Shown one piece after another: positions 19,849 through 56,483 of a DNA stretch of 64,000 nucleotides (position 1 is its first letter; each line of letters begins with the position of its first letter). The notes beneath the pieces are model-generated. The model did not search any database. It saw nothing but the letters and a program-made list of their open reading frames with translations, and was not told the DNA's origin. The stretch is from Luteibacter yeojuensis (GTDB lineage: Bacteria > Pseudomonadota > Gammaproteobacteria > Xanthomonadales > Rhodanobacteraceae), in assembly GCF_000964085.1 (NCBI RefSeq), contig NZ_JZRB01000001.1:1-64000 (forward strand). The letters are read 5' to 3'. A program made the translations under genes and the position numbers.

Positions 19849-19914
19849 GGCTGCATCCTCGCGCATTTGACTTCGCGGGGCCGTGAGGCTAATTTCACGG
19901 CCGCCAGCGGTCTT

Positions 19915-19942
19915 TATCTCTTTATCCGAATAAAGAGATAAA
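19915..19942 (+). promoter_or_regulatory. Methionine-cycle palindromic operator (metE copy)
   Basis: The arms CTTTATCTCTTTAT (19912-19925) and ATAAAGAGATAAAG (19930-19943) are perfectly complementary around CCGA. It is the most symmetric of four 28-bp sites found ahead of metE, metK, ahcY and metF. It lies at the upstream edge of the cobalamin riboswitch, where the promoter is expected. Bound protein is unknown; ArsR-family SahR/SamR regulators are reported for methionine genes of Proteobacteria. Confidence 0.7.
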
Positions 19943-19943
19943 G

Positions 19944-20110
19944 CTAAGAGGGAAGCCGGTTCGAATCCGGCGCTGCCCCGCCGCGGTATGTGGAGACGAC
20001 GCCTGTCACACGCACTGGGCCAAGCCCGGGAAGCGACAGGCAAAGGCGGCACGTTTTGCGTGCCACATCCACGAGCCCGAAGACCTGCCGCCGGCCGGCG
20101 CCCGCGCATC
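19944..20110 (+). ncRNA. Cobalamin (B12) riboswitch of metE
   Basis: Conserved elements appear in the right order: AGAGGGAAGCCGGTTCGAAT (from 19946), CCGGCGCTGCCCCGC, CACTGGGCCAAGCCCGGGAAG, and a B12-box-like AGCCCGAAGACCTGCC (20074-20089). The layout fits the known class that senses adenosylcobalamin or methylcobalamin. Upstream of the B12-independent synthase metE it should lower expression when B12 is available, presumably because a B12-dependent MetH is encoded elsewhere. Confidence 0.88.
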
Positions 20111-20289
20111 GTCATGGATGCGCGGGCGCCGACCGACCTGATGGGCGGCCGCGAGGCGGCCCATCGGTTCGCCCGCGGGGGCGAAGGTCGACGGCCAGCC
20201 CGCATGACGCCTGCCGCTTGCCGTGCTCGCCACGGCGGGTGCGGCCGTTGGTGGGCCCCGCCCTTCCCTCCTCTTTCATCCAAAGAGGA
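20096..20289 (+). promoter_or_regulatory. Expression platform of the metE leader, with a start-site hairpin
   Basis: After the aptamer comes a perfect 15-bp stem (20096-20110 with 20117-20131) that lacks a T run. A weaker stem follows (GATGGGC with GCCCATC, about 20140-20165). Finally CCTCTTT-CATCC-AAAGAGG lies at 20270-20288, whose right arm is the metE ribosome-binding site. The last hairpin suggests control at translation initiation rather than by a terminator. Confidence 0.55.
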
Positions 20290-20297
20290 TCGTTTCC

Positions 20298-22589
20298 ATG
20301 CCACATGTGACTTACCTGGGTTTTCCCCGCATCGGCCGGCGCCGTGAACTGAAGCGCGCCCTCGAGGCCTACTGGAAGGGCGATGCCTCGTCCGCCGACC
20401 TGCTGGCCACGGCCGCCACGCTGCGCCAGCGCCACTGGCAGCTCACCCGCGACGCGGGTGCCGACAGCGTGCCGGTGAACGACTTCGCCCTCTACGACCA
20501 TGTGCTCGACGCGGCCGTGGCGGTGGATGCCATCCCCGCCCGCTACCGCGCCCTGCACGATAGCGACCCGCTTGCCGGGTACTTCGCCATGGCGCGTGGC
20601 CACCAGGACGCTCGCCACGACCTGCACGCCCTCGAAATGACCAAGTGGTTCGACACGAACTACCACTACATCGTCCCGGAGCTGCATGCGGGCCAGGTCT
20701 TCCGCGCGAACCCAGCCAAGGTGGTCGCCGAATACCGCGAGGCGGTGGCGGCGGGCCATCGCGCCCGCCCCGTGCTGCTGGGGCCGGTCACCTTCCTGCT
20801 ACTGTCGAAAACGGTGGACGGTAGCCATGCGCTGGGCCTGCTCGACGCGCTGCTGCCTGCATGGCTGGGCCTCGTCGATGCGCTCGTCGCCGCAGGGGCC
20901 GACTGGATCCAGGTGGACGAGCCCGCGCTGGTGCTGGACCTCGACGCAGGCACCCGCGACGCGTTCCGCCGCACGTACGACACGCTCGCCGCGCATTCCC
21001 CCGCGAAGGTGCTGCTGGCCACGTATTTCGGCGGCCTCGAGGGCAACCTCGGGCTTGCCGTGTCGCTTCCCGTGGCGGGCCTGCACGTGGACCTGGCGCG
21101 CGCGCCAGGGCAGCTCGACGCGGTGCTCGATGCCTTGCCCTCGGGCCGCGTGCTGTCGGCGGGGCTCGTCGACGGCCGCAACGTGTGGCTGAGCGACCCG
21201 GCCACCCTCCTGCCGCGCCTGGAGACCCTGCGCGCACGCGTGGCCGACGAGCGGCTATGGCTGGCGCCCTCGTGCTCGCTGCTGCACGTGCCCGTCGATG
21301 CCGCGGAAGAGAAGCAACTGCCGGGCGACATCGCCCATTGGCTCTCGTTCGCGCGGCAGAAGATCGGCGAGCTGCGCCTTTACGCGGATGCCACGCGCGG
21401 CGCGCGGGATGCCACCGCCGCGCTCACCCGCCAGCACGAGGTCGTCGCGGCGCGCCTTGCCTCGGCGGACGTGGTGCGGCCCGACGTGCGCGCCCGCGTC
21501 CGCGGCCTCACGCCGCAATCCAGCCAGCGCCGCTCGGGCTATGCCCACCGCGCGGCCGTGCAGCGCGAACGCTTCGGCTTGCCTCCGCTACCGACCACCA
21601 CGATCGGTTCGTTCCCGCAGACCCACGAACTGCGCAGCGCCCGTGCCGCGCACCGCGCCGGCAAGCTCGGCGATGCCGAGTACGACGCGCTGTTGCGCGA
21701 AGAGGTGCGCCGGGCCGTGCGCTTCCAGGAAGAGGCCGGCCTCGACGTGCTCGTGCACGGCGAGCCCGAACGCAACGACATGGTCGAGTACTTCGGCGAG
21801 CAGCTCGATGGTTACGCGTTCACGAAGAACGGCTGGGTGCAAAGCTACGGCTCGCGCTGCGTCAAGCCGCCGATCATCTATGGCGACGTGGCGCGCCCGG
21901 CCGCCATGACCGTGGCATGGACCCGCTACGCCCAGTCGCTCACGCAGCGGCCCATGAAGGGCATGCTCACCGGGCCGGTGACGATGCTGCAGTGGTCGTT
22001 CGTGCGCGACGACCTGCCGCGTGCCGAGGTGTGCCGGCAGATCGCCCTGGCCCTGCGCGACGAGGTGCACGACCTGGAGCGCGCCGGCATCGGCATCGTG
22101 CAGGTGGACGAGCCGGCCCTTCGCGAAGGCCTGCCGCTGCGCCGCGCCGACTGGCAGGCCTACCTCGACTGGGCCGTGGACGCCTTCCGCATCACCGCGG
22201 GCGGCACCAGCGACGCCACGCAGGTGCACACCCACATGTGCTACTCGGAGTTCAACGACATCATCGAGGCCGTGGCCGCCATGGACGCGGATGTCATTTC
22301 AATCGAGACCAGCCGCTCGCGGATGGAGCTGCTGGACGCCTTCACCCGGTTCCAGTACCACAACGGCATCGGCCCCGGGGTGTACGACATCCACTCACCA
22401 CGGGTACCCGCCGAGGCGGAAATGGCCGAGCTGGTCGCCCGCGCGCTCCAGGTGCTGGCGCCGGGGCAGCTGTGGATCAACCCGGATTGCGGGCTGAAGA
22501 CCCGGGGGTGGAAGGAGGTGGGTGAGGCGCTGAGAGGCATGGTGGCGGTGGCCCGGGCGGCTCGCGCCCGGCTCGCCGAGGCGACTTAA
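20298..22589 (+). CDS. metE: Cobalamin-independent methionine synthase
   Basis: A 763-residue MetE, which transfers the methyl group of 5-methyltetrahydropteroyl-triglutamate to homocysteine. The zinc ligands are present: His 646 and Cys 648 in HTHMCYSEF, Glu 670 in ISIETSRS, and Cys 731 in [11 protein letters not shown], each about five residues later than in the E. coli enzyme. The homocysteine and folate regions ([10 protein letters not shown] about 458-467) are intact. The ATG at 20298 follows AAAGAGGA; the frame opens 75 bp earlier inside the leader. Control is by the B12 riboswitch and, probably, by the palindromic operator. metK follows closely with its own control region. Confidence 0.95.
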
Positions 22590-22677
22590 CAGCTGAACCA
22601 CCATGCAATCGTCACCTCCCGGGGGTACCCTTGCCGCTGCAATCGGTCGTCGGTGCGTGTATCATGGCGCGCCCTTT

Positions 22678-22705
22678 TATCTCTTTATCCGTAAAGAAGG
22701 ATATA
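22678..22705 (+). promoter_or_regulatory. Methionine-cycle palindromic operator (metK copy)
   Basis: TATCTCTTTATCCG and its imperfect complement TAAAGAAGGATATA form the second of the four related sites. Sixteen bases (22676-22691, TTTATCTCTTTATCCG) are identical to the metE copy. The site ends only 8 bp before the metK ATG. TATATA at 22702-22707 sits where the -10 boxes of metF and ahcY sit relative to their own palindromes. Confidence 0.65.
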
Positions 22706-22713
22706 TACCCGCG

Positions 22714-23931
22714 ATGAGCAGCTATCTCTTCACCTCCGAGTCGGTCTCCGAAGGCCATCCGGACAAAATCGCCGACCAGATCTCCGACGCCGTCCTCGAC
22801 GCCATCCTGGCGCAGGATCCCCGCGCTCGCGTGGCCTGCGAAACGCTGGTGAAGACCGGCGTGGCCATCGTCGCGGGCGAGATCACCACCAGCGCGTGGA
22901 TCGACCTCGAGGCCCTCACCCGCAAGGTGATCCTCGATATCGGCTACAACTCGTCCGATGTCGGCTTCGACGGCGCCACCTGCGGCGTGCTGAACCTTAT
23001 CGGCAAGCAGTCGCCCGACATCAACCAGGGCGTCGACCGCAAGAAGCCGGAAGAACAGGGCGCGGGCGACCAGGGCCTGATGTTCGGCTACGCCACCAAC
23101 GAGACCGCCGAGTTCATGCCGGCCGCCATCCACCTGAGCCACCGTCTGGTGGAACAGCAGGCCAAGGTCCGCAAGAAGAAGAACTCGCCGCTGCCGTGGC
23201 TGCGCCCGGATGCGAAGAGCCAGGTCACGCTGCGCTACAACGAGGCCGGCGAAGCCGTCGCCATCGACGCCGTCGTGCTCTCCACCCAGCACGACCCGGG
23301 CGTGAAGCAGAAGGACCTGGTCGAAGCCGTGCGTGAGCACATCCTCAAGCCGGTGCTGCCGACCAAGCTCCTGCACAAGGACACCAAGTTCCACATCAAC
23401 CCGACGGGCAAGTTCGTCATCGGTGGCCCGGTGGGCGATTGCGGCCTCACCGGCCGCAAGATCATCGTCGACACCTACGGCGGCTGGGCCCGCCACGGTG
23501 GTGGCGCGTTCTCGGGCAAGGATCCGTCGAAGGTCGACCGCTCGGCCGCCTACGCCGCGCGCTACGTGGCCAAGAACATCGTCGCCGCCGGCCTGGCCGA
23601 CCGCTGCGAGATCCAGGTCAGCTACGCCATCGGCGTGGCCGAGCCCACCTCCATCTCGGTCACCACGTTCGGCACCGGCAAGATCCCGGACGACAAGATC
23701 GAGAAGCTGGTCCGTAAGCACTTCGACCTGCGCCCGTACGGCATCCTGCAGATGCTCGACCTGGTGCACCCGATCTACCAGCCGACGGCCTCGTACGGCC
23801 ACTTCGGCCGCAAGCCGTACGAAGTGAAGGGCGCCGATGGCAGCACCTACACCGCGTTCTCGTGGGAAAAGACCGACCGCGCCGAGCTGCTCCGCGACGC
23901 CGCCGGCCTGGGCGGCAAGCCCCGCAAATAA
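22714..23931 (+). CDS. metK: S-adenosylmethionine synthetase
   Basis: A 405-residue MetK, which makes S-adenosylmethionine from methionine and ATP. The start [22 protein letters not shown] is the conserved N-terminus and fixes the ATG at 22714, although the frame opens earlier. Other signatures are [12 protein letters not shown] (about 115-126) and [21 protein letters not shown] (about 237-257). It is 125 bp after metE on the same strand. The palindromic operator covers the space directly before the start, and a terminator follows at 24011-24047. Confidence 0.96.
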
Positions 23932-23936
23932 GCCAT

Positions 23937-24002
23937 GTAGGAGCGCGCTTGCGCGCGATGGGGGGTCGCCGCAGACCGCATCGCGCGCAAGCGCGCTCCC
24001 AC
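23937..24002. repeat. REP-like inverted pair
   Basis: Two facing copies (GTAGGAGCGCGCTTGCGCGC and its inverse) separated by a short spacer lie immediately after the metK stop. Confidence 0.85.
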
Positions 24003-24010
24003 AGGCAGGC

Positions 24011-24047
24011 AAAAAAACGGGCGCCCTTTGGGGCGCCCGTTTTGTTT
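24011..24047 (+). terminator. Intrinsic terminator after metK
   Basis: The stem ACGGGCGCCC-TTTG-GGGCGCCCGT is followed by TTTGTTT and preceded by a run of A. It should stop metK transcription before the DUF4142 gene. Confidence 0.85.
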
Positions 24048-24122
24048 GCCTACCCGCCAGGGTCACGGCGGTTTCATCGACGGGATGCGACACCAGAGGC
24101 CGCCCCATACGGAGACAACGCC

Positions 24123-24653
24123 ATGGCATTCCGCCTCCCCCGCCTTCTGCTCGCAGCCAGCCTCGCCGCTACCCTGCCCCTCACCGCGTTCGCCCAGGCG
24201 CAGGAGAAAGACAGCCAGGGCGGCACGCCTACCGATGCCGCGTTCTACCAGAACGCCACCGCCGCCAACATCAGCGAGGTGCAGCTCAGCCAGCTCGCGC
24301 TGAAGCAGGCCTCGTCCGCCAAGGTGAAGCAGTTCGCGCAAAAGATGGTGGACGACCACACCAAGGCCAACGAAACGCTGGAGGGCCTGCGTAACGGCGA
24401 CAAGGGGTATTCCACCGCCACCGAGCCGACGCCGGATGCCAGCAAGGACATGGACGCCCTGAAGCTGCTCAACGGGAAGGAGTTCGATCGCCAGTACGCC
24501 AAGACGATGGTGGCTGGCCATGAGAAGGCCGTGGCCATGTTCGAGGTCGAAGCCGAGAAAGGCTCGAACCCGGCGATGAAGGATTTCGCTAACAAGACGC
24601 TGCCGACAATCAGGCAGCATCTGAAAATGGCCAAGGCGCTGCCGACCAAATAA
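24123..24653 (+). CDS. DUF4142 exported protein
   Basis: A 176-residue protein with a clear signal peptide (cleavage near AFAQA, about residue 22) and a DUF4142 domain, a predicted ferritin-like four-helix bundle. Family features include FYQNATAANISEVQLSQLAL, KVKQFAQKMVDDHTKANE and FDRQYAKTMVAGHEKAVAMFE with conserved histidines. Function in the family is not established; a periplasmic stress role is often proposed. The start is the first ATG before the signal peptide. Confidence 0.87.
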   Translation: MAFRLPRLLLAASLAATLPLTAFAQAQEKDSQGGTPTDAAFYQNATAANISEVQLSQLALKQASSAKVKQFAQKMVDDHTKANETLEGLRNGDKGYSTATEPTPDASKDMDALKLLNGKEFDRQYAKTMVAGHEKAVAMFEVEAEKGSNPAMKDFANKTLPTIRQHLKMAKALPTK

Positions 24654-24678
24654 AGAAACCATGGCAACTTAAAGAACT

Positions 24679-24743
24679 GTGGGAGCGCGCTTGCGCGCGA
24701 TGGGGGTTGCCGTAAGGCCCATCGCGCGCAAGCGCGCTCCCAC
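24679..24743. repeat. REP-like inverted pair
   Basis: Facing copies of GTGGGAGCGCGCTTGCGCGC lie between the convergent DUF4142 and xylH stops, and could serve as a shared 3'-end structure. Confidence 0.88.
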
Positions 24744-24751
24744 AATTTTGA

Positions 24752-25897
24752 TCATGCGTTGCGGTTTGAGCCCGAGAGCACGTCGACCCACACGGCCAGC
24801 ACGAGGATCACGCCCTTGATGATCATCTGCCACGAGTTGTCGACGTCCATGAGCTGCATGCCGCTGTCGAGGCTGGCCATGACCAGCGCACCGATGAGCG
24901 CGCCGTAGACCGTGCCCGAGCCGCCACGCATCGAGGTGCCGCCGATGAAGCAGGCCGAGATGGCATCGAGCTCGCCGCCGGTACCGGCCGAGGGGGAACC
25001 GGAGCCCGTGCGGGCCACCGTGATGATGCCGGCGAAGGCGCACATGAGGCCCATGAGCGCGAACACCACCAGCTTCACGCGGCCCACGTTCACGCCGGAG
25101 AGGCGCGTCGCCTCCATGTTGCCGCCTACCGCGTAGATGTGCCGGCCGAAGACGGTCTGCGTCGAGACATAGGTGAACACGGCCAGCAGCGCCAGCAGGA
25201 TCATCACCGGGATGGGGATGCCGTTGGCGTCATTGAGCATGCGGATGAAGCCGAAGATCACCGCGCCGATGATGACGAGGCGGGCCACGTCCATCCACAG
25301 AGCCACCTGCTGCAGCCCCAGCCTGGCGCGGCGCATGCGGCGGCGGGCGGTGAGGCCGACCATGACCAGGAAGATGATGCCGCCGATCCAGCGCGATAGC
25401 GCCACGGGAACGAAGCCCTGGCCGAGCTGGACAAGGTCGTCGGGCGCCGGCGCGATGGTGGCGCTGCCGGTGATGTAGAGCACGATGCCACGGAACGCGA
25501 GCATGCCGCCCAGGCCCACGATGAACGAAGGCACGCGCATCTTCGTGACGACGAAGCCGTTGAACGCACCGATCAGCAGGCCAAGCAGCAGCACGGCGCC
25601 GATGGACGGCCACGTGCCCCAGCCCAGGTTCACCGTGAGGATGGCGGCGACGCCGCCCAGCAACCCGAGCTGCGAGCCGATCGACAGGTCGATCTCGCCC
25701 GCGATGATGATGAACACCATGCCGCACGCGAGCATGCCGGTGATGGCCATCTGGCGGAACAGGTTGGAAAGGTTGTTCGGCGTGATGAAGGCCTGGTCGG
25801 TCTTCACGTGGAAGAAGACCCAGATGAGGGCGACCGCGATAAGCAGCGCCAGGATCTTGTAGCGGACGAAGAGTTGCTGGATTTTCTGGCCTTGCAT
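24752..25897 (-). CDS. xylH: D-xylose ABC transporter permease
   Basis: A 381-residue inner-membrane permease of the RbsC/XylH family, with about ten hydrophobic segments. Family motifs include AGEIDLSIGSQLGLLGGVAA (about 66-85) and the cytoplasmic GGNMEATRLSGVNVGRVK loop (about 258-275) that contacts the ATPase. It is the last gene of xylABFGH, 42 bp after xylG. The assignment to xylose rests on the operon: isomerase, kinase, binding protein and XylR are all present. Confidence 0.92.
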   Translation of the reverse strand: MQGQKIQQLFVRYKILALLIAVALIWVFFHVKTDQAFITPNNLSNLFRQMAITGMLACGMVFIIIAGEIDLSIGSQLGLLGGVAAILTVNLGWGTWPSIGAVLLLGLLIGAFNGFVVTKMRVPSFIVGLGGMLAFRGIVLYITGSATIAPAPDDLVQLGQGFVPVALSRWIGGIIFLVMVGLTARRRMRRARLGLQQVALWMDVARLVIIGAVIFGFIRMLNDANGIPIPVMILLALLAVFTYVSTQTVFGRHIYAVGGNMEATRLSGVNVGRVKLVVFALMGLMCAFAGIITVARTGSGSPSAGTGGELDAISACFIGGTSMRGGSGTVYGALIGALVMASLDSGMQLMDVDNSWQMIIKGVILVLAVWVDVLSGSNRNA

Positions 25898-25939
25898 CGA
25901 CGGGTTTCCGTGGTGGCGCGTGGAAAAGCGGTAAGGGGG

Positions 25940-27487
<1,548 letters not shown>

Positions 27488-27526
27488 CGCGTGGACCTTT
27501 CATCGGACTGTTGAGACTGTGGCCAT

Positions 27527-27570
27527 GTGGGAGCGCGCTTGCGCGCGATCGCGCGCAAGCGCGCTCCCAC
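27527..27570. repeat. Perfect 44-bp REP-like palindrome between xylG and xylF
   Basis: Two 22-bp arms (GTGGGAGCGCGCTTGCGCGC plus GA, and its inverse) abut without a spacer. It lies inside the xyl operon in the 98-bp gap after the binding-protein gene. There it may protect the xylF message and give more binding protein than permease, as REP sequences do in the E. coli mal operon. The same 44 bases occur at 33852-33895. Confidence 0.9.
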
Positions 27571-27585
27571 CTTAAGCGCACCGCG

Positions 27586-28599
27586 TCAGTTGCCCACCTG
27601 CGCCTGGGTGTAGAAGCCATCCTTCACCACCAGGTCGACGTTCTGCTTGGTGAGCAGGGTGGGCGTGAGGAGGATGGTGTCGACATCCTTGGTGCCATTG
27701 TTCATCTTCGAAGTGAACTTCGGCGTCTCGCCCTTGGCGAACTGCACGGCGAGCTCCGCGGCGTCGGTGGCGATGGTCTTGATCGGCTTGTACACCGTCA
27801 TGGTCTGCGTGCCGGCCTTGATGCGCTTCACGCCCGCCAGGTCGGCATCCTGGCCCGAGACCGCCACCTTGCCGGCCAGCTTCTGGCCGTTGAGGGCGGC
27901 GACGGCGCCACCGGCCGTGCCATCGTTGGATGCCACGATGCCCTGGATGTTGTTCTTGTTGGCGGTGAGCGCGTTCTCGATGATCGACTGCGCCTTCGAG
28001 GCCAGCCACTCGTCGGTCCACTGCTGGCCGACGATCTTGACCGCGCCGCTCTTCACCAGCGGGTCGAGGATCTTCATCTGGCCCTGGCGCAGGATCTTGG
28101 CGTTGTTGTCGGTAGGCGCGCCGCCGAGCAGAAAGTAATTGCCCTTGCCGCCGGTGGCGTCGACCACGCCCTTGGCCTGCATCTCGCCCACCTTCTCGTT
28201 ATCGAACGAGATATAGGCGTCGACATCGGCGTTGAGGATGAGGCGATCGTACGAGATGACCCTGATGCCGGCTTTCTTCGCCTCCGCCACCACGGTGGTA
28301 AGCGTCTTCGCGTTGAACGGCACGATGACGATGACATCGACCTTGCGCGAGATGAGGTTTTCGATCTGCTGGATTTGCTTCTGCTCGTTGGCGTCGGCGG
28401 ACTGCACCGACACCGTCGCGCCCTTGGCCTCGGCCGCGGCCTTGAAGTAATCGCGGTCGCGCGTCCAGCGCTCGACGCGGAGGTCGTCGATGGAGAAGCC
28501 GATGACGGGCTTTTCCTTGCTCGCGTGCGCCTGCGGCGCGAAGACGCCGGCGGCGACCATGGACATGGCCAACAACGTGTGTAGGGCCTTCTGCTTCAT
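27586..28599 (-). CDS. xylF: D-xylose periplasmic binding protein
   Basis: A 337-residue binding protein with a signal peptide (MKQKALHTLLAMSMVAAGVFAPQAHA). Mature XylF motifs include PVIGFSIDDLRVERWTRDRDYF (about 32-53), NADVDAYISFDNEKVGEMQA, and ASNDGTAGGAVAAL. The ATG at 28599 has GGAG six bases ahead; a second in-frame ATG four codons earlier lies on top of that site and is less likely. It delivers xylose to XylGH. It is followed by the 44-bp palindrome. Confidence 0.93.
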   Translation of the reverse strand: MKQKALHTLLAMSMVAAGVFAPQAHASKEKPVIGFSIDDLRVERWTRDRDYFKAAAEAKGATVSVQSADANEQKQIQQIENLISRKVDVIVIVPFNAKTLTTVVAEAKKAGIRVISYDRLILNADVDAYISFDNEKVGEMQAKGVVDATGGKGNYFLLGGAPTDNNAKILRQGQMKILDPLVKSGAVKIVGQQWTDEWLASKAQSIIENALTANKNNIQGIVASNDGTAGGAVAALNGQKLAGKVAVSGQDADLAGVKRIKAGTQTMTVYKPIKTIATDAAELAVQFAKGETPKFTSKMNNGTKDVDTILLTPTLLTKQNVDLVVKDGFYTQAQVGN

Positions 28600-28626
28600 G
28601 CTGTTCTCCATCGTATGGAATCGCCC

Positions 28627-30132
28627 TCAGGACGGGCGGAAAGCGTCGCCTCGGGCGGCGTCGGTATACAGTGGCTTGAGCTGTTCGTAAGCACGGCGGA
28701 ACAAAGGGTGGCGCGTTTGCAGGAAATAAGCATGACGCGCTGCATCGGGCTCACGTACGGCAGTGACGGCGGGCATGGGGCACACCTCGTCGAGCGAAGC
28801 CGTGGGTTCCACCGCCAGGCGGGCCAGGCGCGCGGCGCCCAGGGCGGGCCCCACCTCGCCGCCGGCGCGCAGCACAAGCCGCTTGCCGAGGATGTCGGCA
28901 AGCATCTGTGTCCAGTACGCGCTGCGCGAGCCACCGCCGATCACGGTGATCTCGTCGGCGACCACGCCCGTGCCCTCGACCGCGAGCAGGCCATCGAGCA
29001 GGCCAAGGCCCACGCCCTCGAGCGTGGCGTTGGCCAGGTCGGCGCGCGTGGTGTCGGGGCCCAGGTGGGTGAACGAGCCGCGGGCATGCGGATCGTTGTG
29101 CGGCGTGCGCTCACCGGTGAGGTAGGGAAGGAACAAGGGACCACCCTCGCGCAGCCCGGCCTCTTCGGCATCGGCCAGCAGCGTGGCGACATCATCGTAG
29201 CCGGTAAGGCGTGCCGTGAAATCCAGGCAGCTGGCGGCGTTCAACATCACCGACATGAGGTGCCAGGTGCCCGGCAAGGCATGGCAGAAACTGTGCACGG
29301 CCGTCTCGGGGCTGGCTTTGAAACCATCGGAGACGGCGAAGTACACGCCCGACGTGCCCAGCGACAGCATGGCGTGGCCCGCGCGCACGATGCCCACGCC
29401 CACGGCACCTGCGGCATTGTCGCCCCCGCCCGCGGCGACGGGCACGGTATCCATGCCCCAACGCCGCGCCAGTTCGCCACTCAACCGGCCCGCCGGCTGG
29501 CTGCCCTCGAATACCTCGGGCATGTGCGCGCGCGTGAGGCCGGTGGCCGCCAGCATGGCGTCGCTCCACGCACGCTTGCGGACATCGAGCCACAGCGTGC
29601 CGGCCGCGTCGGAGGCGTCGGTCATGAATGCGCCGGTGAGGCGGAAGCGGAGGTAATCCTTCGGCAGCAGCACTTTCGCGATGCGGGCGAACACGTCGGG
29701 CTCGTGCCGGCGCACCCAGGCGAGCTTCGGCGCCGTGAAGCCCGGCATGGCCAGGTTGCCCGTGACCTCGCGGAAGCCGGGCACCTTTTCCAGCTCGGCG
29801 CATTCCACGTCGGAGCGGCCGTCGTTCCACAGGATGGCCGGGCGCAAAACCTGGTCGGCGTCATCGAGCAGCGTGGCGCCATGCATCTGCCCCGAAAGGC
29901 CGATGGCGGCGACGCGGCGTGCCTCCTGCCCCTGCAGCACCTGCGCCACCGCGGCTTCGGTCGCGGCCCACCACGCCGCGGGATCCTGCTCCGACCAGCG
30001 CGGCCGTGGGTGCTGCACGGTGAGCGGGCTCGACGCGCTGGCACGCACCTCGCCCCGTGCGTCGATAAGCACGGCCTTGACCGAGGACGTGCCCAGGTCG
30101 ATGCCGAGGTACAAACGTGCCGAAGCGTCCAT
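28627..30132 (-). CDS. xylB: Xylulokinase
   Basis: A 501-residue FGGY-family kinase that phosphorylates D-xylulose to the 5-phosphate. The N-terminal GIDLGTSSVKAVLID (about 10-24) is the phosphate-binding start, SGQMHGATLLD (about 77-87) is the xylulokinase substrate signature, and LSLGTSGVYF plus GGGSRSAYW form the ATP site. The start is taken as MDAS at 30132, 13 bp after the xylA stop; ATGs at 30144 and 30153 overlap xylA and cannot be excluded. Confidence 0.93.
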   Translation of the reverse strand: MDASARLYLGIDLGTSSVKAVLIDARGEVRASASSPLTVQHPRPRWSEQDPAAWWAATEAAVAQVLQGQEARRVAAIGLSGQMHGATLLDDADQVLRPAILWNDGRSDVECAELEKVPGFREVTGNLAMPGFTAPKLAWVRRHEPDVFARIAKVLLPKDYLRFRLTGAFMTDASDAAGTLWLDVRKRAWSDAMLAATGLTRAHMPEVFEGSQPAGRLSGELARRWGMDTVPVAAGGGDNAAGAVGVGIVRAGHAMLSLGTSGVYFAVSDGFKASPETAVHSFCHALPGTWHLMSVMLNAASCLDFTARLTGYDDVATLLADAEEAGLREGGPLFLPYLTGERTPHNDPHARGSFTHLGPDTTRADLANATLEGVGLGLLDGLLAVEGTGVVADEITVIGGGSRSAYWTQMLADILGKRLVLRAGGEVGPALGAARLARLAVEPTASLDEVCPMPAVTAVREPDAARHAYFLQTRHPLFRRAYEQLKPLYTDAARGDAFRPS

Positions 30133-30145
30133 GTCAGGTTCCATA

Positions 30146-31462: not shown

Positions 31463-31615
31463 AACGATTCCTTGACGAACGTGGGGACGAATCCCAACGA
31501 TGCTCACCAGCGGGGGCACGCGGTGCAATTGCGATTTCAGGCGCCCCTCCTGCCCTTTTTCCTGCCGCGACGCGTCATGGCCTAAACCGCCGTTCCCTGC
31601 TAGTTTCCCTGGTCC
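31463..31615. promoter_or_regulatory. xylA-xylR divergent control region
   Basis: This 153-bp gap separates the xylose operon from its regulator and must contain both promoters and the XylR sites. I could not pick out a convincing repeated operator by eye; CGATGCTCACCAGCG and GCAATTGC stretches are the only minor symmetries. Confidence 0.45.
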
Positions 31616-32794: not shown

Positions 32795-33837
32795 TGCCCA
32801 TCTCCGAACCCACCGCCTGGGGCCAGCTGCCCGACGGCCGCCCCCTCCACCGCTGGACCCTGCGCAACGCCGCCGGTGCCCGCGTCGACATCACCGACCT
32901 GGGGGGCACCCTGCTCTCGTGGCAGGCGCCCGACCGCCAGGGGAGCGTGGGCGACGTGCTGCTGGGCCACGCCGATGCCGCGGCGTACCTCGCCGCCACC
33001 GCGTACATGGGCGGCATCGTCGGGCGCTGGGCCAACCGCATCCGCGGGGGGCGCTTCCAGCTCGACGGCATCGGGCACAAAGTGGACCGCAACGACGGCG
33101 ACAACCACCTGCATGGCGGCCACGAGGGTTTCCACCACCGCCGGTGGGACGTGGAGCGCGACGGCGAGGCGCTGCTGCTTCGCCTGGCCTCACCGGAGGG
33201 CGACGGCGGTTTCCCTGGCGACGTGCGCGTGCAGCTGCGCGTGGCCCTGGGAGACGACGGCACCCTGGCGCTTGCCTATGAGGCCACCGCGGATGCGCCC
33301 ACGCCACTGAACCTCACCGCGCACCCGTACTTCAACCTCAACGACCGCCGCGACGATATCCGCGACCACGTCATCCGCATCGACGCCGACGAATTCCTTG
33401 CCACCGATGCCACGGCCATCCCAACGGGCCGCCAGCATGTCTCCGGCACCGCCTTCGATTTCCGCGAGCCCGCGCCCATCGGCTCGCGGCTGTACTGGCC
33501 CGATCCACAACTGCGCGTGGCCGGTGGCTTCGACCACTGCTACGTGCCGCGCGGGGCGGTCGGCGCGGCGCCACGCGTCGTCGCCGTCGTGGCCGAGCCC
33601 TCGAGCGGCCGGCGGCTCACCGTGGAAACCGACCGGCCCGGCCTGCAGTTCTACAGCGGCCAGAAGCTGGCCGGGCAGCTCGATCGCCAGGGGCACCCCT
33701 ATGGCGCCTTCGCGGGGTTCGCGCTCGAGGCGCAGGCGTTCCCGGACGTGGTGAACACCGATGACGCCGAACTGGGCATCCTGCGGCCAGGCGAGGTGTA
33801 CCGCCAGCTGACCCGATACCGCCTCGACACGCTCTAG
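32794..33837 (+). CDS. galM: Aldose 1-epimerase
   Basis: A 347-residue mutarotase that interconverts alpha and beta sugar anomers. The conserved segments GRWANRIRGGRF (about 73-84), NHLHGGHEGFHHRRW (about 106-120), NLTAHPYFNL with the catalytic His, and FALEAQAFPD with the catalytic Glu are present. The ATG overlaps the xylR stop (ATGA), so the two are co-translated. In this setting it most likely speeds anomerisation of xylose for the isomerase. Confidence 0.9.
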   Translation: MPISEPTAWGQLPDGRPLHRWTLRNAAGARVDITDLGGTLLSWQAPDRQGSVGDVLLGHADAAAYLAATAYMGGIVGRWANRIRGGRFQLDGIGHKVDRNDGDNHLHGGHEGFHHRRWDVERDGEALLLRLASPEGDGGFPGDVRVQLRVALGDDGTLALAYEATADAPTPLNLTAHPYFNLNDRRDDIRDHVIRIDADEFLATDATAIPTGRQHVSGTAFDFREPAPIGSRLYWPDPQLRVAGGFDHCYVPRGAVGAAPRVVAVVAEPSSGRRLTVETDRPGLQFYSGQKLAGQLDRQGHPYGAFAGFALEAQAFPDVVNTDDAELGILRPGEVYRQLTRYRLDTL

Positions 33838-33851
33838 CACCCCTGCCCCTT

Positions 33852-33895
33852 GTGGGAGCGCGCTTGCGCGCGATCGCGCGCAAGCGCGCTCCCAC
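33852..33895. repeat. Perfect 44-bp REP-like palindrome after galM
   Basis: Identical over 44 bases to the palindrome at 27527-27570. A short duplicate of its end (GCTCCCACACAAC) follows at 33903-33915, suggesting local duplication or slippage. Confidence 0.9.
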
Positions 33896-33957
33896 ACAAC
33901 ATGCTCCCACACAACATAAAGGGCGCCGGAACGGCCAAACCCGGGTAAAATGCCCGG

Positions 33958-35838
<1,881 letters not shown>

Positions 35839-35858
35839 AGTAAAGAGCCTCGTCCCCT

Positions 35859-35952
35859 GTAGGAGCCCGCTTGCGGGCGACAGCTTTCGCGATGGCGGAA
35901 CAGGGCCTGTGGCCGTTTCGCGAAAAGATGTCGCCCACGCGTGGGCTCCTAC
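35859..35952. repeat. REP-like inverted pair (AGCCCGC type)
   Basis: GTAGGAGCCCGCTTGCGGGC faces a diverged copy ending GTGGGCTCCTAC, with an inner TTTCGCGA/TTTCGCGAAA symmetry. It is a third sequence type sharing the same outer frame as the other elements and lies between the convergent uup and chemoreceptor genes. Confidence 0.8.
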
Positions 35953-35969
35953 AGTGAAGCGCGCCGGCG

Positions 35970-37955
35970 TTACAGGCGGAACGCTTCAACCACGCGCGCC
36001 AGCGCCGCCGCCTGCCCTTCCAGGCTCTTCGCCGCCGCGGCGGCTTCTTCCACCAGCGCCGAATTCTGCTGCGTGGAGTCGTCCATCCGGGCCACGGCGT
36101 GGTTGATGCGGCCGATCTGCTCGCTCTGCTCCGAGGAGGCGCGGCTGATCTCGCCCATCAGGCCCGCCACGTCGCGGATGCGGCCGATGACGGCGTGCAT
36201 GTTCCGCCCCGCGTCCGTGACAAGGCCGTGGCCGACATCCACCTGCTCCACCGATGCGGTGATGAGCTGTTCGATTTCCTTCGACGCCTTGGCGCTGCGC
36301 TGCGCGAGGTTGCGCACTTCTTCCGCCACCACCGCGAAGCCCTTGCCCTGCTCGCCCGCGCGTGCCGCTTCCACGGCCGCGTTCAGCGCCAGGATATTGG
36401 TCTGGAACGCGATGCCATTGATGATGCCAACGACATCGACGATGCGCTGTGCCGAGGCCTGGATGCCGTTCATCGATGCCACGGCGTCGGCCATCGCGCT
36501 GGCCTCCTGCTGCACGGCCACGCTGGCCCCTTCGGCCAGCGCGCTCGCGCGTGCCGCGTGGCCTGCGTTATCGCGCACGGTGCGGGTGAGCAGGTCGAGG
36601 CTGGCGGCGGTCATCTGCAGTTCCGCCGCCTGGCGCTCGGTGCGCATCGACAAGTCGGTATTGCCGGCCGCGATCTCCGATGTGCTGCCCGTCATGCTCG
36701 CCGTGGCACGGCGCACCGATTCGGCGATGCTACCCACGCCATCGCCGATGCCGTCGATCGCGTTCATGAGCTGGCCGATCTCGTCGCCGCGGGTGGAAGC
36801 CAGCCGCGCGGTAAGGTCGCCGGCGGCCATGCGGCTGGCTGCCTGCACGGCGGACGACAGCGGCCGCGTGATGCGCACCCGGATGGCGATGAACAGCAAC
36901 ACGCACAATACGCCCACGATCACGAGGCTGCTGCCGATGGCCACGTTGCGCAGGTGGCGCACGGGGGCGTAAAGCTCTGCCGTGTCGACGGTGCCTGCCA
37001 CCATCCAGTGCCACGACGGGTCGGTGTCGAACACGGCCAGGCGCTCCACGTCGCGGTCCCCCACCGCCACGCGGTAACGCGCCTCGCCTTTCCCCGCTTG
37101 CAGCATGGGGCCGAACACCGGCTTGCCATCGGTGCCGAGCGCCTTCAGCGCCGCGCCGTCGGCTTTCGCCGCGTCATCGGCCAGCGCGGGGTCGACGATG
37201 TACGAGCCGTAACGCTTGCCCGCCGCCGCGTCGATCACCGAGTAATGCCCGGTCTCACCGATGCGGATGGACGAGATCTGCGCCTGCAGCGCCGCCATCT
37301 CCTGGGTGATCTCGACGCCGACGAACCACGCGCCGATGACCTGGCCACCGGCGTCACGCACGGGCTCGTAGCGCGTGATGTACGGCTTGCCGAACAACAC
37401 GGCCGGGCCACCGTAGCCCTTGCCGGCCAGCAGCAGCGGGAACGCCGGGTGGGCATGGTCGATCGACGTGCCCACGGCACGGGAACCATCCTGCTTCTTC
37501 AGCGAGGTGGTGACGCGGATGAAATCCTGGCCATCGCGCACGAACAGCGTGGCCACGACGTGCGCGCGGTCGGAGAACTCATCCACGAGCGCGAAGTCGT
37601 TATTGATCGCCTTGCCCGCTAGCGACATCGTCGGCACCGTGCGATCCCCCATGGTCACGCGGTGCTTCTCGTCGGTGGCCAGCCTGTCGGCCGGGAAGTA
37701 GGTCTCGAAGACGGCAAGGAAGCGGTCGGATTCGGCCAGCAGCGCACCGCTGAACGTGTTCACCATGGCGATGATGGCGTGGTTGCCCCGGGCCAGGTCG
37801 TCGCGCGCCCGGGTCTCCAGCTCGCGTGAGACGAGCGTGGTGACCAGCACGGTGAGGGCGGCGATGCCCAGCGAGACGATGGCGACGACGAGCAACGTGA
37901 GGCGCGCGCCCACGCTGAGGCCGCGCCAACGGGCGCGACCGAGGGTGTTCTTCAT
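35970..37955 (-). CDS. Methyl-accepting chemotaxis protein
   Basis: A 661-residue chemoreceptor. The first membrane helix ([24 protein letters not shown], about 19-42) leads into a periplasmic Cache-type sensor of about 270 residues. The second helix ([19 protein letters not shown], about 330-348) is followed by HAMP and the signalling domain, whose hairpin tip reads [38 protein letters not shown]. No C-terminal CheR-binding pentapeptide is evident. The ligand is unknown. It stands alone here, without che genes nearby. Confidence 0.92.
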
Positions 37956-38044
37956 GATGGGTAACCTGCAATGGGGGGACAGGCCCGCGCGGCACGCGGG
38001 CCTTGCACCGCCCTAATTCGGCAGGCTTCGAGCCAGCTTTAGGG

Positions 38045-40750
38045 CTAGCCCGTATTCTGAAGCCCCTGTGAGACGCCGTTGACGCAAGCGACCAGGGCGT
38101 TCAGCAGGGCATCGTCCTTGCCGCCGGTGGCGCGCCAGCGCTTCAGCAGGTCGACCTGGAGCAGGCTCATCGGGTCCACGTACGGGTTGCGCAGGCGGAT
38201 CGAAGTGGCCAGGCGCGGCTCGCGCTGGAGCAGCTCGGTGGCACCCTTCAGCTTCAGCACCCAGTGCACCGTGCGCTCGAACTCCTCGCGTACCTTCGGG
38301 AAGAACCGTTCGTGCAGCGGCCCTGCCAGCTCGGAGAAGGCCTCGGCGATGCCGATATCGGCCTTCGCCAGCACCATCTCCACGTCGTCGAGCATGGTGG
38401 CGAAGAACGGCCACTCATGCGCCATGCGCGACAGGGTTTCCTCGCCGCATTCCCTGGCCACCGCCTCGAGCGCGCCGCCCAGGCCATACCAGCCGGTGAG
38501 CACCGCGCGGCATTGCGTCCACGAGAACACCCACGGGATGGCGCGCAGGTCCTCCACGCCCTTCATGCTGCGGCGTCGCGCCGGGCGCGATCCGAGGGTC
38601 ATGCGTTCGATCACGTCGATGGGCGTGGCGCCACGGAAATACTCGACGAACCCATCCATGTCAACGAACGCGCGGTAGGCCTTCCGGCTTTCGTCGGAGA
38701 GCCGCACCATCACGTCCTTCCAGCCCGCCTCGCGCACCTCGGCCACCCGTGGGCGCAGCGATGCGCGCATGACGGCGCCGAGCGTCTGTTCCATGTTGCG
38801 CACGGCCAGCGCGCGGATGCCGTACTTGCGGTGGATGACTTCACCCTGTTCCGTCACGCGCAGCACGCCGCCGACGGAACCACGCGGCGAAGCCATGAGC
38901 GCGGGCGTGATGCGCGAACCGCCGCGGCTGGCCGAGCCGCCGCGGCCGTGGAAGAACGCGACGCGGATGCCCGCCTTCTGCGCCACCTCCAGCAACTCGA
39001 CCTGCGCACGCTGCAGGCTCCACTTCGAGGCGACGGTGCCGCCATCCTTGCCGCTGTCGGAGTAGCCCAGCATCACCCACTGGCGGTCGCCGCGCGCTTT
39101 CAGGTGCGCGCGGTACACCGGGTCGTCAAGCAGCGCCTGCAGTGTGGCCGGCCCGCCCTTCAGGTCGTCGATGGTCTCGAACAGCGGCGCCACGTCGAGC
39201 GGCACGCGGCCGTCTTCCAGCAGGCCGCCGCGACGCGCCAGGGCCAGCACGGCGAGTACGTCGGCCGCGGTCTCGGCCATGCTGATGATGTAGAGGCCCG
39301 TGGCTTCGGTGCCGTAGCGCTTGCGTGAATCGGCCAGCGTCGCGAACACATCGCGCAGCATGCCCGCGGCATCGTTGCCCTCGCCGGCGACGAAGCTGCG
39401 TTCGCCGGCCGCATACGGGCGCAGGGCCTTCACGCGCGACTCGGCATCGCGATCGGCCCAGCCGCTGTCGTCGAGCAGCGCACCCAGGGCCTCGTCGTGC
39501 ACGCGCGCATCCTGGCGCACGTCGAGGCGGGCGAGGTGAAAGCCGAACGTACGCGCACGCCACAGCAGCCGGCCCACGGCGTAGGCCCCGGCATGGCGGC
39601 CGCTGTGGTTCAGCAGGCTTTTTTCCACCAGCGCGATGTCGTCGATGAAGTCGTTGGCCGAGGCGTACGCCGCCTCGCCTTCATGTTGCGTGGCATCCAG
39701 CCGCGCGGCGACGAAGGTGAGGAACGCGCGATACGGCATGTCGGCGTGGCGCGGGCGGATGCGCGCGGCGGCATCGGGCAGTTGCTCGCGGTAATCGTCG
39801 AGGCGGCGCGACAGCTTGTCGTCGAGCGTGACACGGTCGCTCGTCTGGCTGAGCAGGCGGCCGAGCTCATTCACGCCTTCCACGTAGCGCTCCAGCACCA
39901 GCGCGCGCTGCGCGGACAGCGTGGCTGCGATGGTGTCGGCATTGACGTTGGGGTTGCCGTCCATGTCGCCACCCACCCAGGTAGCGAAGCGCAGCACGCG
40001 GGGCACCTTCACGCCATCGCCGTAGTGCTCGGCAATCGCCTGTTCCAGCGATTCATACAAGGCCGGCAGCACGCGGTAGATCGGCCGCGAAATGTAGAAC
40101 CCGACGTGGTCGAACTCGTCGGAGACGCTGGGCCGCACCGGCGAGGCCTCGGCCGTCTGCCAGCCCGCCGACAGCGCCATGAGTATGCGGGCGTCGTCGT
40201 CGCGTAGCTCCTGCGGCGTGCGGGTGGGGTCGAACTCGTCGACCAGCGCGCGGACGATCTCCTGCTCCTTCTCCAGCAACGAGCGGCGCACGGCCTCGGT
40301 CGGGTGGGCCGTGAACACGGGCTCGACATCGAGCTTGCCCAGCAGGGTGGCCAGTTCCTCGGCGGTGACGCCCTCGGCCTTCAGCTGGCCGACCACGGCG
40401 GCCAGCGATTCGGGCTGCGGCGAGCCGCCCTCGCGCTGGTAATCGCGGCGGCGGCGGATGCGGTGCACCCGCTCGGCGGTGTTCACGGCCTGGAAATAGG
40501 TGGCGAAGGCACGGGCCAGCGATTCGGCATCCCTGGCCTCCAGGCCGGTCAGGCTCTCGGCCAGGGCGCCCGCGTCATCGCCCGTGCGGCGGCGGTGGAT
40601 GGCCGTGGTGCGTACGGCCTCGACCCGCTCGAAGAAGGCCTGCCCGCCCTGTTCAGCCAGCATCTGGCCCACCAGGGCGCCCAGCCGGCGCACATCTTCG
40701 CGCAAGGGCCCGTCGTGCGGGAGGAATTCCGGGTCGCGTGTGGCTTCCAT
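38045..40750 (-). CDS. ppc: Phosphoenolpyruvate carboxylase
   Basis: A 901-residue PEP carboxylase, which makes oxaloacetate from PEP and bicarbonate. The signatures [13 protein letters not shown] (about 144-156), [12 protein letters not shown] (about 556-567), [13 protein letters not shown] (about 594-606) and the invariant C-terminus QNTG are present. Length is normal. It supplies the TCA cycle anaplerotically; the aromatic pathway at the left of the window also ends in oxaloacetate and pyruvate. It is divergent from ahcY, and the 196-bp gap between them holds the ahcY control region. Confidence 0.96.
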
Positions 40751-40800
40751 CAGTCTCTCTACCAGGGGAGAAACCCCGAGAGTACCGAAAAACGTGTAGT

Positions 40801-40828
40801 CATCTGATCATCCGCATTCCGAGATATA
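40801..40828 (+). promoter_or_regulatory. Methionine-cycle palindromic operator and promoter (ahcY copy)
   Basis: CATCTGATCATCCGCATTCC followed by GAGATATA aligns without a gap to the metF copy at 19 of 28 positions. It is the least symmetric of the four sites. TATAAT (40825-40830) overlaps its right end as a good -10 box and would start transcription about 10 bp before the SAH riboswitch. Confidence 0.6.
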
Positions 40829-40847
40829 ATCCGTGATCGTTCTCCCC

Positions 40848-40924
40848 CGCCGAGGGGCGCTGCGACCGGAGGGGTTCCCCGATGGCCAGGCTCGGCGCGG
40901 TTTCCCGTACAACGGCGCCCCCGT
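40848..40924 (+). ncRNA. S-adenosylhomocysteine (SAH) riboswitch
   Basis: All three conserved blocks of the SAH class are present in order: CCGAGGGGCGCTGCGACC (40850-40867), GCCAGGCTCGG (40885-40895) and AACGGCGCCCCC (40911-40922). They can form the two stems and the pseudoknot of this class. It lies 23 bp ahead of the ahcY ATG. SAH riboswitches turn on SAH-clearing genes when SAH builds up, here ahcY. Confidence 0.93.
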
Positions 40925-40946
40925 AACCATCCGGAGCTACGCCACC

Positions 40947-42380
40947 ATGAACGCCGTCACCAAAGACACCGCCTCGCAGGACTTCAAGGTCCGCGACTAT
41001 TCCCTCGCCGACCTCGGCCGCCGCCGCATCCGCATGGCCGAAGAGGAAATGCCGGGCCTGATGCAGATCCGCGCGCGCTACGCCAACGAGAAGCCGCTGA
41101 AGGGCGTGCGCCTCTCGGGCTCGCTGCACGTCACCAAGGAAACCGCCGTGCTGGCGGAGACCCTGCGCGAGCTGGGCGCCTCGGTCCGCTGGGCCTCTTG
41201 CAACATCTTCTCCACCCAGGACGACGTCGCCGCCGCCCTGGCCGCCGGCGGCCTGCCGGTGTTCGCCTGGAAGGGCGAAACGCTGGAGGAATACTGGGAC
41301 TGCACCCTCGACATGCTCACCCACCCAGGTGAACTCGGCCCGCAGCTCATCGTGGACGACGGTGGCGACGCCACCCTGTTCATCCACAAGGGCGTCGAGC
41401 TCGAAGACGGCAGCGACTGGGTGAACACCCCCAGCGGCAACCACGAGGAGCAGGTCATCAAGAACCTGGTCAAGAAGACCGCCGCCGCCCGCCCGGGCTG
41501 GTTCAAGAAGATCGCCGCCGAGTGGAAGGGCGTCTCGGAAGAGACCACCACCGGCGTGCACCGCCTCTACCAGCTGGCCGAGGCCGGCAAGCTGCTGGTG
41601 CCGGCCATCAACGTCAACGACTCGGTCACCAAGTCGAAGTTCGATAACCTCTACGGCTGCCGCGAGTCGCTCGCCGACGGCATCAAGCGCGCCACCGACC
41701 TCATGGTCGCGGGCAAGGTCGCCGTCGTGTGCGGCTACGGTGACGTGGGCAAGGGTTGCGCCCACTCGCTGAAGGGCTTCGGCGCACGCGTCATCGTCAC
41801 CGAGATCGACCCGATCAATGCACTGCAGGCCGCGATGGAAGGCTTCCAGGTCACCACCATCGAAGACACCCTGGGCGTCGGCGATATCTACGTGACCACC
41901 ACGGGCAACAAGGACATCATCACGCTCGAGCACATGGCGGCGATGAAGAACAACGCCCTCGTCTGCAACATCGGCCACTTCGACAACGAGATCCAGATGG
42001 ATCGCCTCAACGGCTCGAAGGACGCCACGCGCGAGACCATCAAGCCGCAGGTTGATCGCTACACCTTCGCGTCCACCGGCAACAGCATCTACATGCTGGC
42101 CGAGGGCCGCCTGGTGAACCTCGGTTGCGCCCATGGCCACCCGAGCTTCGTCATGTCGAACAGCTTCTCGAACCAGACCCTCGCCCAGCTCGACCTGTGG
42201 GCGAACAAGGACAAGTACGAGAACACCGTGTACCGCCTGCCGAAGAAGCTGGACGAGGAAGTGGCCCGCCTGCACCTCGAGCAGATCGGCGTGAAGCTCA
42301 CCGTCCTCACGAAGGACCAGGCCGATTACATCGGCGTGCCGGTCGAAGGCCCGTACAAGCCGGATCATTACCGCTACTGA
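40947..42380 (+). CDS. ahcY: S-adenosylhomocysteine hydrolase
   Basis: A 477-residue SAH hydrolase that splits S-adenosylhomocysteine to adenosine and homocysteine with bound NAD. The NAD-binding [19 protein letters not shown] (about 255-273), the substrate region with [12 protein letters not shown], and the C-terminal KPDHYRY are typical. The ATG at 40947 is chosen since the frame upstream, from 40833, runs through the riboswitch and gives no family sequence. It returns homocysteine to MetE. Control is by the SAH riboswitch and probably the shared palindrome. Confidence 0.96.
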
Positions 42381-42402
42381 TCTACGGCGGTTCGATGAAC
42401 AG

Positions 42403-42428
42403 AGGGCGCCTTCGGGCGCCCTTTTTTT
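42403..42428 (+). terminator. Intrinsic terminator after ahcY
   Basis: AGGGCGCC-TTCG-GGCGCCCT has a stable UUCG-type loop and is followed directly by a run of T. Confidence 0.92.
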
Positions 42429-42440
42429 GTGGGAGGCATA

Positions 42441-42514
42441 TCGCGCGCAAGCGCGCTCCCACATAGCGGGGGTGGGCGTCTCCGCCCGTTTGTGGGAGCG
42501 CGCTTGCGCGCGAT
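42441..42514. repeat. REP-like pair
   Basis: An inverted copy at 42441-42462 and a direct copy at 42492-42514 face outward from each other, between ahcY and the convergent DUF4232 gene. Confidence 0.85.
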
Positions 42515-42517
42515 GCT

Positions 42518-43009
42518 CTAGGGCGCCTTCTGCAACGGCGACTGCTCAAACGCGACAGGCTTCCCCGCCTCCCCGCACATATGCCCTGCCATCGCCCCCT
42601 TCACCACCTGCTCGCCAAAACTCAGCTCCACCTGCGCCGGATCAACGCAGCGGCTGTTGTCATACACCTCGCCCGAGACCCAGCGTACGCCCGTGCGCAC
42701 GCTCGCACCCGGCTCGATCCGCACCGGGACCACCGCCGGGCCCGGGTGCATGCCCACCGGGCCCTTGCGCGCCGCGGGCAGCGCGGCGCCCTTCGCATCC
42801 TTCATCACGAGCGTGGGCAAGCCGGGAACGGTGCAGGCCTGGCCACCCTTGTTGGTGAGCACGAGGTAGGTGCCATCGTGCGACATGCCGCTGAAGTCGC
42901 CCTGGCCGCCATCGGCGGTGAGTGTGAGCGTGGCGGCCGTGCAGGGCGGGATGTTGGGGGTGAAGGCAGGCATCGGGGCTCCCGGTGGGACGTGGGTGGG
43001 TGCCGTCAT
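42518..43009 (-). CDS. DUF4232-like protein
   Basis: A protein of about 163 residues with a DUF4232-type beta sandwich. PPCTAATLTLTADGG near the N-terminus and TYLVLTNKGGQACTVPGLPTLVMKDAKG fit the family, as does the paired-cysteine pattern (C..., ACTVPG, CVDPAQ, CGEAG). No signal peptide is visible from the chosen ATG at 43009. An ATG at 42973 has a better GGGAG site and would give 151 residues; upstream ATGs to 43165 run into metF regulatory DNA. Function is unknown. It is divergent from metF. Confidence 0.65.
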   Translation of the reverse strand: MTAPTHVPPGAPMPAFTPNIPPCTAATLTLTADGGQGDFSGMSHDGTYLVLTNKGGQACTVPGLPTLVMKDAKGAALPAARKGPVGMHPGPAVVPVRIEPGASVRTGVRWVSGEVYDNSRCVDPAQVELSFGEQVVKGAMAGHMCGEAGKPVAFEQSPLQKAP

Positions 43010-43040
43010 CTTCCGCCATCCGCGTGAATGGCCGATTAGC

Positions 43041-43068
43041 CATCTTTCCATCTGGATGTAAAGATATA
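43041..43068 (+). promoter_or_regulatory. Methionine-cycle palindromic operator and promoter (metF copy)
   Basis: ATCTTTCCATC and GATGTAAAGAT are complementary at 10 of 11 positions around TG. TATACT at 43067-43072 provides a -10 box at the same offset as in ahcY. Transcription would start near 43079, leaving a short leader before the ATG at 43101. Confidence 0.68.
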
Positions 43069-56373: not shown

Positions 56374-56483
56374 GGATGTGGGATCAGCATCGACCAAAGT
56401 AGAAGGTTCGGACGTCCAGACGGCCTTGCATGCAATATAGCTGTCATGGCTAGATTAAGGTCAAGTTAACGCTGGAAAGCCTG

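Follow-up and report, generated by a model that had tools for sequence, protein, structure and literature searches.

The DNA analysed here comprises positions 1-64,000 of the forward strand of contig NZ_JZRB01000001.1 of Luteibacter yeojuensis (assembly GCF_000964085.1), and this whole stretch of 64 kb is called the window. It carries four methyl-cycle genes, metE, metK, ahcY and metF, each with a site of one palindromic motif upstream, together with two riboswitches (Table 1). Our main subject is the palindrome before metE. It very probably serves twice in the same bases, as a predicted operator of the ArsR-family regulator SamR in the DNA and as the P2 hairpin of an adenosylcobalamin riboswitch in the RNA. 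P2 is the name used here for the first internal hairpin of this riboswitch.

Table 1. Features of the window, numbered from its first base (SAM, S-adenosylmethionine; SAH, S-adenosylhomocysteine).
Feature	Position	Strand	Evidence and remarks
Likely metE promoter, TTGACT-N17-TAATTT	19867-19895	+	Sequence; -35 at 19867-19872, -10 at 19890-19895
Cobalamin riboswitch RF00174	19891-20106	+	103.8 bits against a gathering threshold of 31.5; model positions 1-189 of 189
SamR-type predicted operator, same bases as riboswitch P2 hairpin	19916-19939	+	Matrix, 36.9 bits; held-out model; RF00174 placement
metE, cobalamin-independent methionine synthase	20298-22589	+	Meth_synt_1 and Meth_synt_2
SamR-type predicted operator before metK	22679-22702	+	38.9 bits; kept in 30/30 loci; match of held-out model
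metK, SAM synthetase	22714-23931	+	S-AdoMet_synt domains
Weak SamR-type site before ahcY	40802-40825	+	10.7 bits; overlaps likely -10; kept in the genus
SAH riboswitch RF01057	40846-40927	+	52.2 bits against a gathering threshold of 37
ahcY, S-adenosylhomocysteine hydrolase	40947-42380	+	AdoHcyase
SamR-type predicted operator before metF	43042-43065	+	37.1 bits; 11/11 loci; held-out model E 1.5; overlaps likely -10
metF, methylenetetrahydrofolate reductase	43101-43925	+	MTHFR domain

The shared motif and its candidate regulator

An earlier, sequence-only reading of this DNA had described the four sites as ungapped copies of 28 bp. Their coordinates, their sequences and the number of positions shared with the metF copy (18/28 for metE, 18/28 for metK and 19/28 for ahcY) are correct. 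The same is true of ATCT at positions 2-5, ATC at 10-12 and G at 14 in every copy, and of the perfect metE palindrome, which has 14-bp arms around CCGA and extends over 19912-19943. The right end it proposed, GA(G/T)AT, mixes two registers and is replaced by GAT at positions 23-25, the element common to all four sites. In relatives, the conserved unit is 24 bp long, ATC-N18-GAT, usually with ATC repeated at positions 9-11. All four 24-mers of the window have ATC at 9-11 and GAT at 22-24, which gives the pattern ATC-N10-GAT.

Sites were scored with a matrix made from the samR, metK and metF sites of family f1 (the family of the window), with the genome's own sites included and metE sites excluded. 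By this measure, the metE, metK and metF sites are strong copies of one 24-bp operator-like motif, the ahcY site is the lowest of the four, level with an intragenic match at 61712, and the next best score in the window is 0.9 bits. Conservation in relatives, proposed earlier as a check, is complete for samR, metK and metF: ATC-N18-GAT was found in 30/30 samR loci, 30/30 metK loci and 11/11 metF loci, the last being those of the 30 ahcY loci where metF was found behind ahcY in the fetched stretch.

As for the regulator, the sequence-only reading had found no gene for it in the window and had named ArsR-family proteins of the SahR/SamR kind, and a gene of this kind was indeed located elsewhere in the genome. 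A search for HTH_5 (ArsR-type) domains gave three matches, of which the one strong match is on contig 72. The gene (G000:C72:4949-5875, 308 amino acids), our samR candidate, combines an ArsR-type winged helix (HTH_5) with a SAM-methyltransferase-like domain (Methyltransf_25/11). Directly 3' of it, in what is taken to be one operon, are metH1 (S-methyl_trans) and then metH2 (Pterin_bind, B12-binding and Met_synt_B12). The motif occurs here for a fifth time, at 4920-4943 of contig 72, ending five bases before the samR start codon. The gene is present in 147/147 f1 genomes, in four of them by weak matches, these genomes being 77-89% complete.

SamR of Xanthomonadales has been described as an ArsR-type, SahR-like regulator beside metH1-metH2 and as a distant SahR homologue (about 30% identical, by the paper's own figure). 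The targets assigned to it are metF, metK and, in Xylella, metE, which is otherwise assigned mainly to MetR; as far as the text of that paper goes, metK is the only SAM-cycle gene under SamR (Leyn 2014, PMC4239095). The contig-72 protein likely corresponds to this predicted SamR, and the regulon to a known kind. The place beside metH1-metH2, the 24-bp palindrome with ATC-N10-GAT and the targets metF and metK all agree with the published motif and regulon as given in the text of Leyn 2014. What differs here is that metE has its site within a B12 riboswitch (78 genomes from two families) and that a site is also present before ahcY (two genera). SahR operators, as described, also share ATC-N10-GAT and methyl-cycle targets, but the SahR motif is 20 bp long.

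The sequence-only reading had placed each copy on or next to a -10-like box. By inspection, this holds for metF and ahcY, whose sites overlap their apparent -10 elements. The samR and metK operators lie downstream of theirs, and for metK the claim is doubtful, given a conserved TATCAT at 22660-22665 upstream of the operator. The right halves of these same two operators contain AAGGA (G000:C72:4938-4942 for samR and window 22697-22701 for metK), which may double as a ribosome-binding site, 6 nt (samR) or 12 nt (metK) before the start codon.

Two models were used to scan the 4.55-Mb genome. Model R1 includes this genome's sites and is partly circular, and for this reason a held-out, sequence-only model, R2, was built from other genera and without metE sites; the metK 24-mer of this genome is unchanged in other genera and is thus also inside R2. 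Each scan scored no more than 150 pre-selected candidates, out of 460 (R1) and 834 (R2), so that weak sites can be missed. R2 lists samR (E 3e-4), metK (8e-4), metE (0.011) and metF (1.5), with nothing else at E <=10 among the matches listed. Sites before metA/X, metB and mtn, suggested earlier as places to look for hits, were looked for only through these two genome-wide models, and none is among the matches listed. One methionine-cycle regulon under an ArsR-family regulator of SamR type is well supported by these comparisons, since the motif is conserved in relatives and the held-out scan lists samR-metH, metK, metE and metF. The earlier proposal of a single regulon of four genes stands for the strong sites of metE, metK and metF, while ahcY is an unequal member (10.7 bits, 11/30 genomes).

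The metE palindrome inside a cobalamin riboswitch

By its Rfam match, the metE palindrome is the first internal hairpin of a complete adenosylcobalamin riboswitch, and it folds as a 14-bp stem in the RNAfold minimum-energy structure. Neither this nor the SAH riboswitch before ahcY was part of the sequence-only reading. The likely metE promoter is separated from the operator by 20 bp, and all operator-keeping genomes (78/78) have TTGA[CT] 44-50 bp upstream of the operator; on this ground the -10 overlap claimed for metE was rejected. Since the likely promoter is upstream of the palindrome, the operator is probably in the transcribed leader, at roughly +12 to +38.

We surveyed 96 genomes with metE (58 + 38) across the order and read 95 upstream regions, leaving out G063, where metE is at a contig edge; loci L327 and L328 repeat L017 and L031 and were counted once. 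A riboswitch precedes metE in 88/95 genomes. For 72 of these the match is by cmscan. The remaining 16 came from an nhmmer profile, made with 49 of the cmscan-confirmed riboswitches, and scored 153-198 bits over about 205-215 positions. The operator lies within P2 in 78 of the 88, each with at least 14.8 bits by the samR/metK/metF matrix, and the other ten score -0.6 or below. By family, it is present in 31/31 genomes of the neighbouring family f2, 47/55 of f1, 0/1 of f9 and 0/1 of f10 (G198, outside the f1 counts). Examples include Luteibacter jiangsuensis (metE locus 77% identical to that of the window), Dyella sp., Xanthomonas massiliensis, Luteimonas wenzhouensis, Pseudoxanthomonas sp. and, with a weaker score, Lysobacter sp. 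In Dokdonella fugitiva the metE riboswitch has no operator.

The aptamer before metE is a complete RF00174 riboswitch, and it differs from the 68 other cobalamin riboswitches, taken from 40-odd of the same genomes, in that its P2 carries the predicted operator. None of the 68 has the motif or reaches 10 bits, the top scores being 2.6 among 49 of them and 5.5 among the 19 scanned over longer stretches. In the 73 of 80 metE loci that come from outside the order, nothing comparable was seen up to 900 nt upstream of metE (maximum 13.2 bits). The operator keeps a fixed register in the aptamer. It is preceded by GG in 78/78 genomes, and GGGAA follows at a distance of 7-11 nt in 75/78 according to a script, to which inspection by eye adds a 76th.

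The metE operator starts 339-571 nt upstream of the gene (median 417), and more than 350 nt upstream in 75/77 genomes (30/31 in f2), with L030 left out and the distance taken up to where the protein match begins, which is no more than a few codons away from the start codon. The published reconstruction covered the 350 nt upstream of each start codon and the first 100 nt downstream (Leyn 2014, PMC4239095). The metE operators were probably missed because nearly all are beyond this limit, which would explain why metE was assigned to SamR in only one published member of Xanthomonadales.

In terms of sequence, ten of 24 positions are invariant among 59 distinct metE 24-mers, and nine of these are also invariant in all samR, metK and metF sites. 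The variable stem positions change by compensation (pairs of C-G, T-A, A-T and G-C types), both within and outside the operator. When eight variable pairs are followed through 71 distinct sequences, pairing is kept in 88% of cases; shuffling lowers this to 70%, and the highest value among 1000 shuffles is 74%. At position pair 5/20, which is mostly C/A in samR (22/28) and metK (24/26) sites, 68/72 P2 sequences are paired. The perfection of the palindrome was also considered as proof of selection on the RNA and was dropped; the three operators without a recognisable riboswitch are near-perfect too.

Loss of either element and the proposed reading

The operator and the riboswitch can be found apart. 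Upstream of metE, 7/95 genes have no RF00174 match. Four of them (G024, G065, G251 and G299) have no operator either, and three (G137, G128 and G107) keep metE operators of 27-35 bits; whole-genome searches of these three give cobalamin riboswitches elsewhere and not at metE. On the other side, ten genomes retain the riboswitch with a P2 sequence unrelated to the operator.

Eight of these ten belong to f1, and there MetJ may be involved. MetJ and its met boxes are a different protein and a different motif, with met-box-like pairs in many metE promoters. Boxes were scored as a box pair out of 16 positions, against the met-box consensus. All eight f1 genomes with an operator-less riboswitch match at 13-14 of 16 in the metE promoter, and MetJ-like boxes are present in 2/47 f1 operator keepers compared with 8/8 losers (Fisher p 4e-8, relatedness uncorrected). 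The eight span four genera, and g18 and g26 also contain operator keepers. MetJ itself was found in 146/147 genomes of f1, 0/31 of f2, 2/3 of f9 and 0/1 of f10. The natural reading of these sequences is that MetJ seems to have replaced SamR at metE in the eight f1 genomes, while the RNA stem, still needed, drifts. In the metE promoter of this genome, no strong MetJ box was found at a threshold of at least 11 of 16 matches. No MetJ is listed for the four Xanthomonadales in the text of Leyn 2014 (PMC4239095), and Xanthomonas campestris is described as being without metJ (PMC6230763).

The MetJ of this genome (G000:C66:45966-46220, L101, minus strand) matches the E. coli Met repressor 1cma with E 7e-32 and is extended by a tail of about 130 residues that is rich in Lys and Ala and resembles histone H1. 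The MetJ open frames of many relatives are likewise much longer than the core of about 100 residues.

It is very unlikely that the metE palindrome acts purely as a riboswitch stem in the RNA and resembles the samR, metK and metF sites by coincidence or structural preference. In favour of this are the covarying pairs of the riboswitch hairpin and a symmetry greater than that of the metK and samR sites. Against it, other cobalamin riboswitches lack the motif (0/68), the nine fixed bases coincide with those of the samR, metK and metF operators, and the held-out model lists the metE site. Moreover, three genomes retain the operator where the aptamer has decayed, and ten retain the aptamer where the operator has gone. 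More improbable still is a DNA operator alone, beside which the leader hairpin would be incidental and the riboswitch would work without P2. Operators are palindromes and fold regardless, and some P2 stems are mismatched (pair 4/21 is unpaired in 16/72); against this, flanking pairs outside the operator covary, and the RF00174 match persists in genomes that lost the operator. The least probable of the three is that some protein other than SamR recognises the shared motif. Binding by SamR is a prediction both here and in the text of Leyn 2014, as is its effector, but the motif precedes samR in 30/30 loci, and it was from the same gene neighbourhood that Leyn 2014 assigned a 24-bp palindrome to SamR (PMC4239095).

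The reading that we consider likely is that a palindromic operator has been kept inside an aptamer across two families, where it would be read by a repressor as DNA and by a metabolite sensor as RNA, and that this arrangement has been dismantled either way. Two-fold complementarity is required of a dimer operator just as it is of an RNA stem, and one palindrome can therefore serve both.

A number of points weigh against this double use or limit it. First, the metE leaders of G137, G128 and G107 still score 17-26 bits by the profile of their relatives, compared with about 15 for a lone operator. Because of this residual likeness, the three, at first described as operators with no riboswitch at all, look like decayed riboswitches with the operator retained and not like sites that always lacked a riboswitch. 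Second, the f9 and f10 genomes (two in total) have a riboswitch with neither operator nor met boxes (8 of 16 matches, the chance level). Third, the pairing at 5/20 is also seen in metF sites (10/11), position 11 is C in 32/78 metE sites versus 71/71 samR, metK and metF sites, and the outer pairs are nearly as complete in the three operators without a recognisable riboswitch (9.33 of 10) as in P2 (9.51). Shared ancestry remains in both the covariation shuffle and the Fisher test. Finally, SamR is the putative binder by virtue of its own operator, its gene neighbourhood and Leyn 2014, the search for its presence covered family f1 only, and the transcription starts are those predicted from sequence.

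If SamR, with SAM or SAH as its candidate effector, binds at about +12 to +38, it would most likely hinder promoter escape or early elongation. A polymerase passing the site would copy the operator into the adenosylcobalamin aptamer, which in turn would shut metE when adenosylcobalamin is plentiful and the B12-dependent MetH can do the job. Under this scheme, metE would be on only when the methyl cycle demands it and B12 for MetH is short.

Among open-licence papers on operators inside riboswitches and on SamR with Xanthomonas and metH, covered mostly as far as the opening of the abstract, we found no report of such an arrangement. For Sinorhizobium metA, which has a SAM-II riboswitch, one possible interpretation given for a mutant is that the riboswitch leader contains a site for a transcription factor; it is a considered possibility only, and the text names no operator or regulator (PMC9373788). 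What is new here is the predicted operator within P2 of the B12 riboswitch at metE, the SamR regulon being of an already known kind. Annotation usually treats an operator and a riboswitch as two distinct devices; at metE both occupy the same bases. With genomes that have both, an operator and a decayed switch, or a switch and no operator, there is a natural series in which the role of the DNA can be told apart from that of the RNA. If the reading is true, variable riboswitch stems may be a general hiding place for operators, which suggests a practical rule of scanning variable riboswitch hairpins for them.

The ahcY site and further observations

The ahcY site is conserved in 10/10 loci of the same genus (8.4-18.8 bits) and is strong in G024 (29.0 bits), which makes 11/30 genomes in two genera. 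In the same genus it is placed 54-55 nt before the end of a stretch reaching 5 nt into the SAH riboswitch core. The other 19/30 ahcY loci have at most 1.6 bits on the coding strand and 3.6 on the other strand, and 1200 shuffled regions never exceeded 4.3 bits. The site is not among the matches listed by the genome-wide models R1 or R2. It was kept as a candidate, despite a weak score alone, because of its conservation within the genus, and ahcY is a probable weak, lineage-specific target of SamR type. A matrix scan of the window also gave a match of the same score level at 61712, which was rejected as a regulon member as it is intragenic.

Lastly, some met-box-like sequences were noted away from metE. 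Upstream of metK, sequences of the type CATCCAGACGTCTGAAC were seen by eye, unscored, for example in L171, L174 and L176, among the loci viewed (L168, L170, L171, L173, L174, L175 and L176). In the window, the met-box-like GGACGTCCAGACGGCC at 56410-56425 (12 of 16) is about 60 bp upstream of the open reading frame 56484-58349, which encodes a DUF1302 protein.

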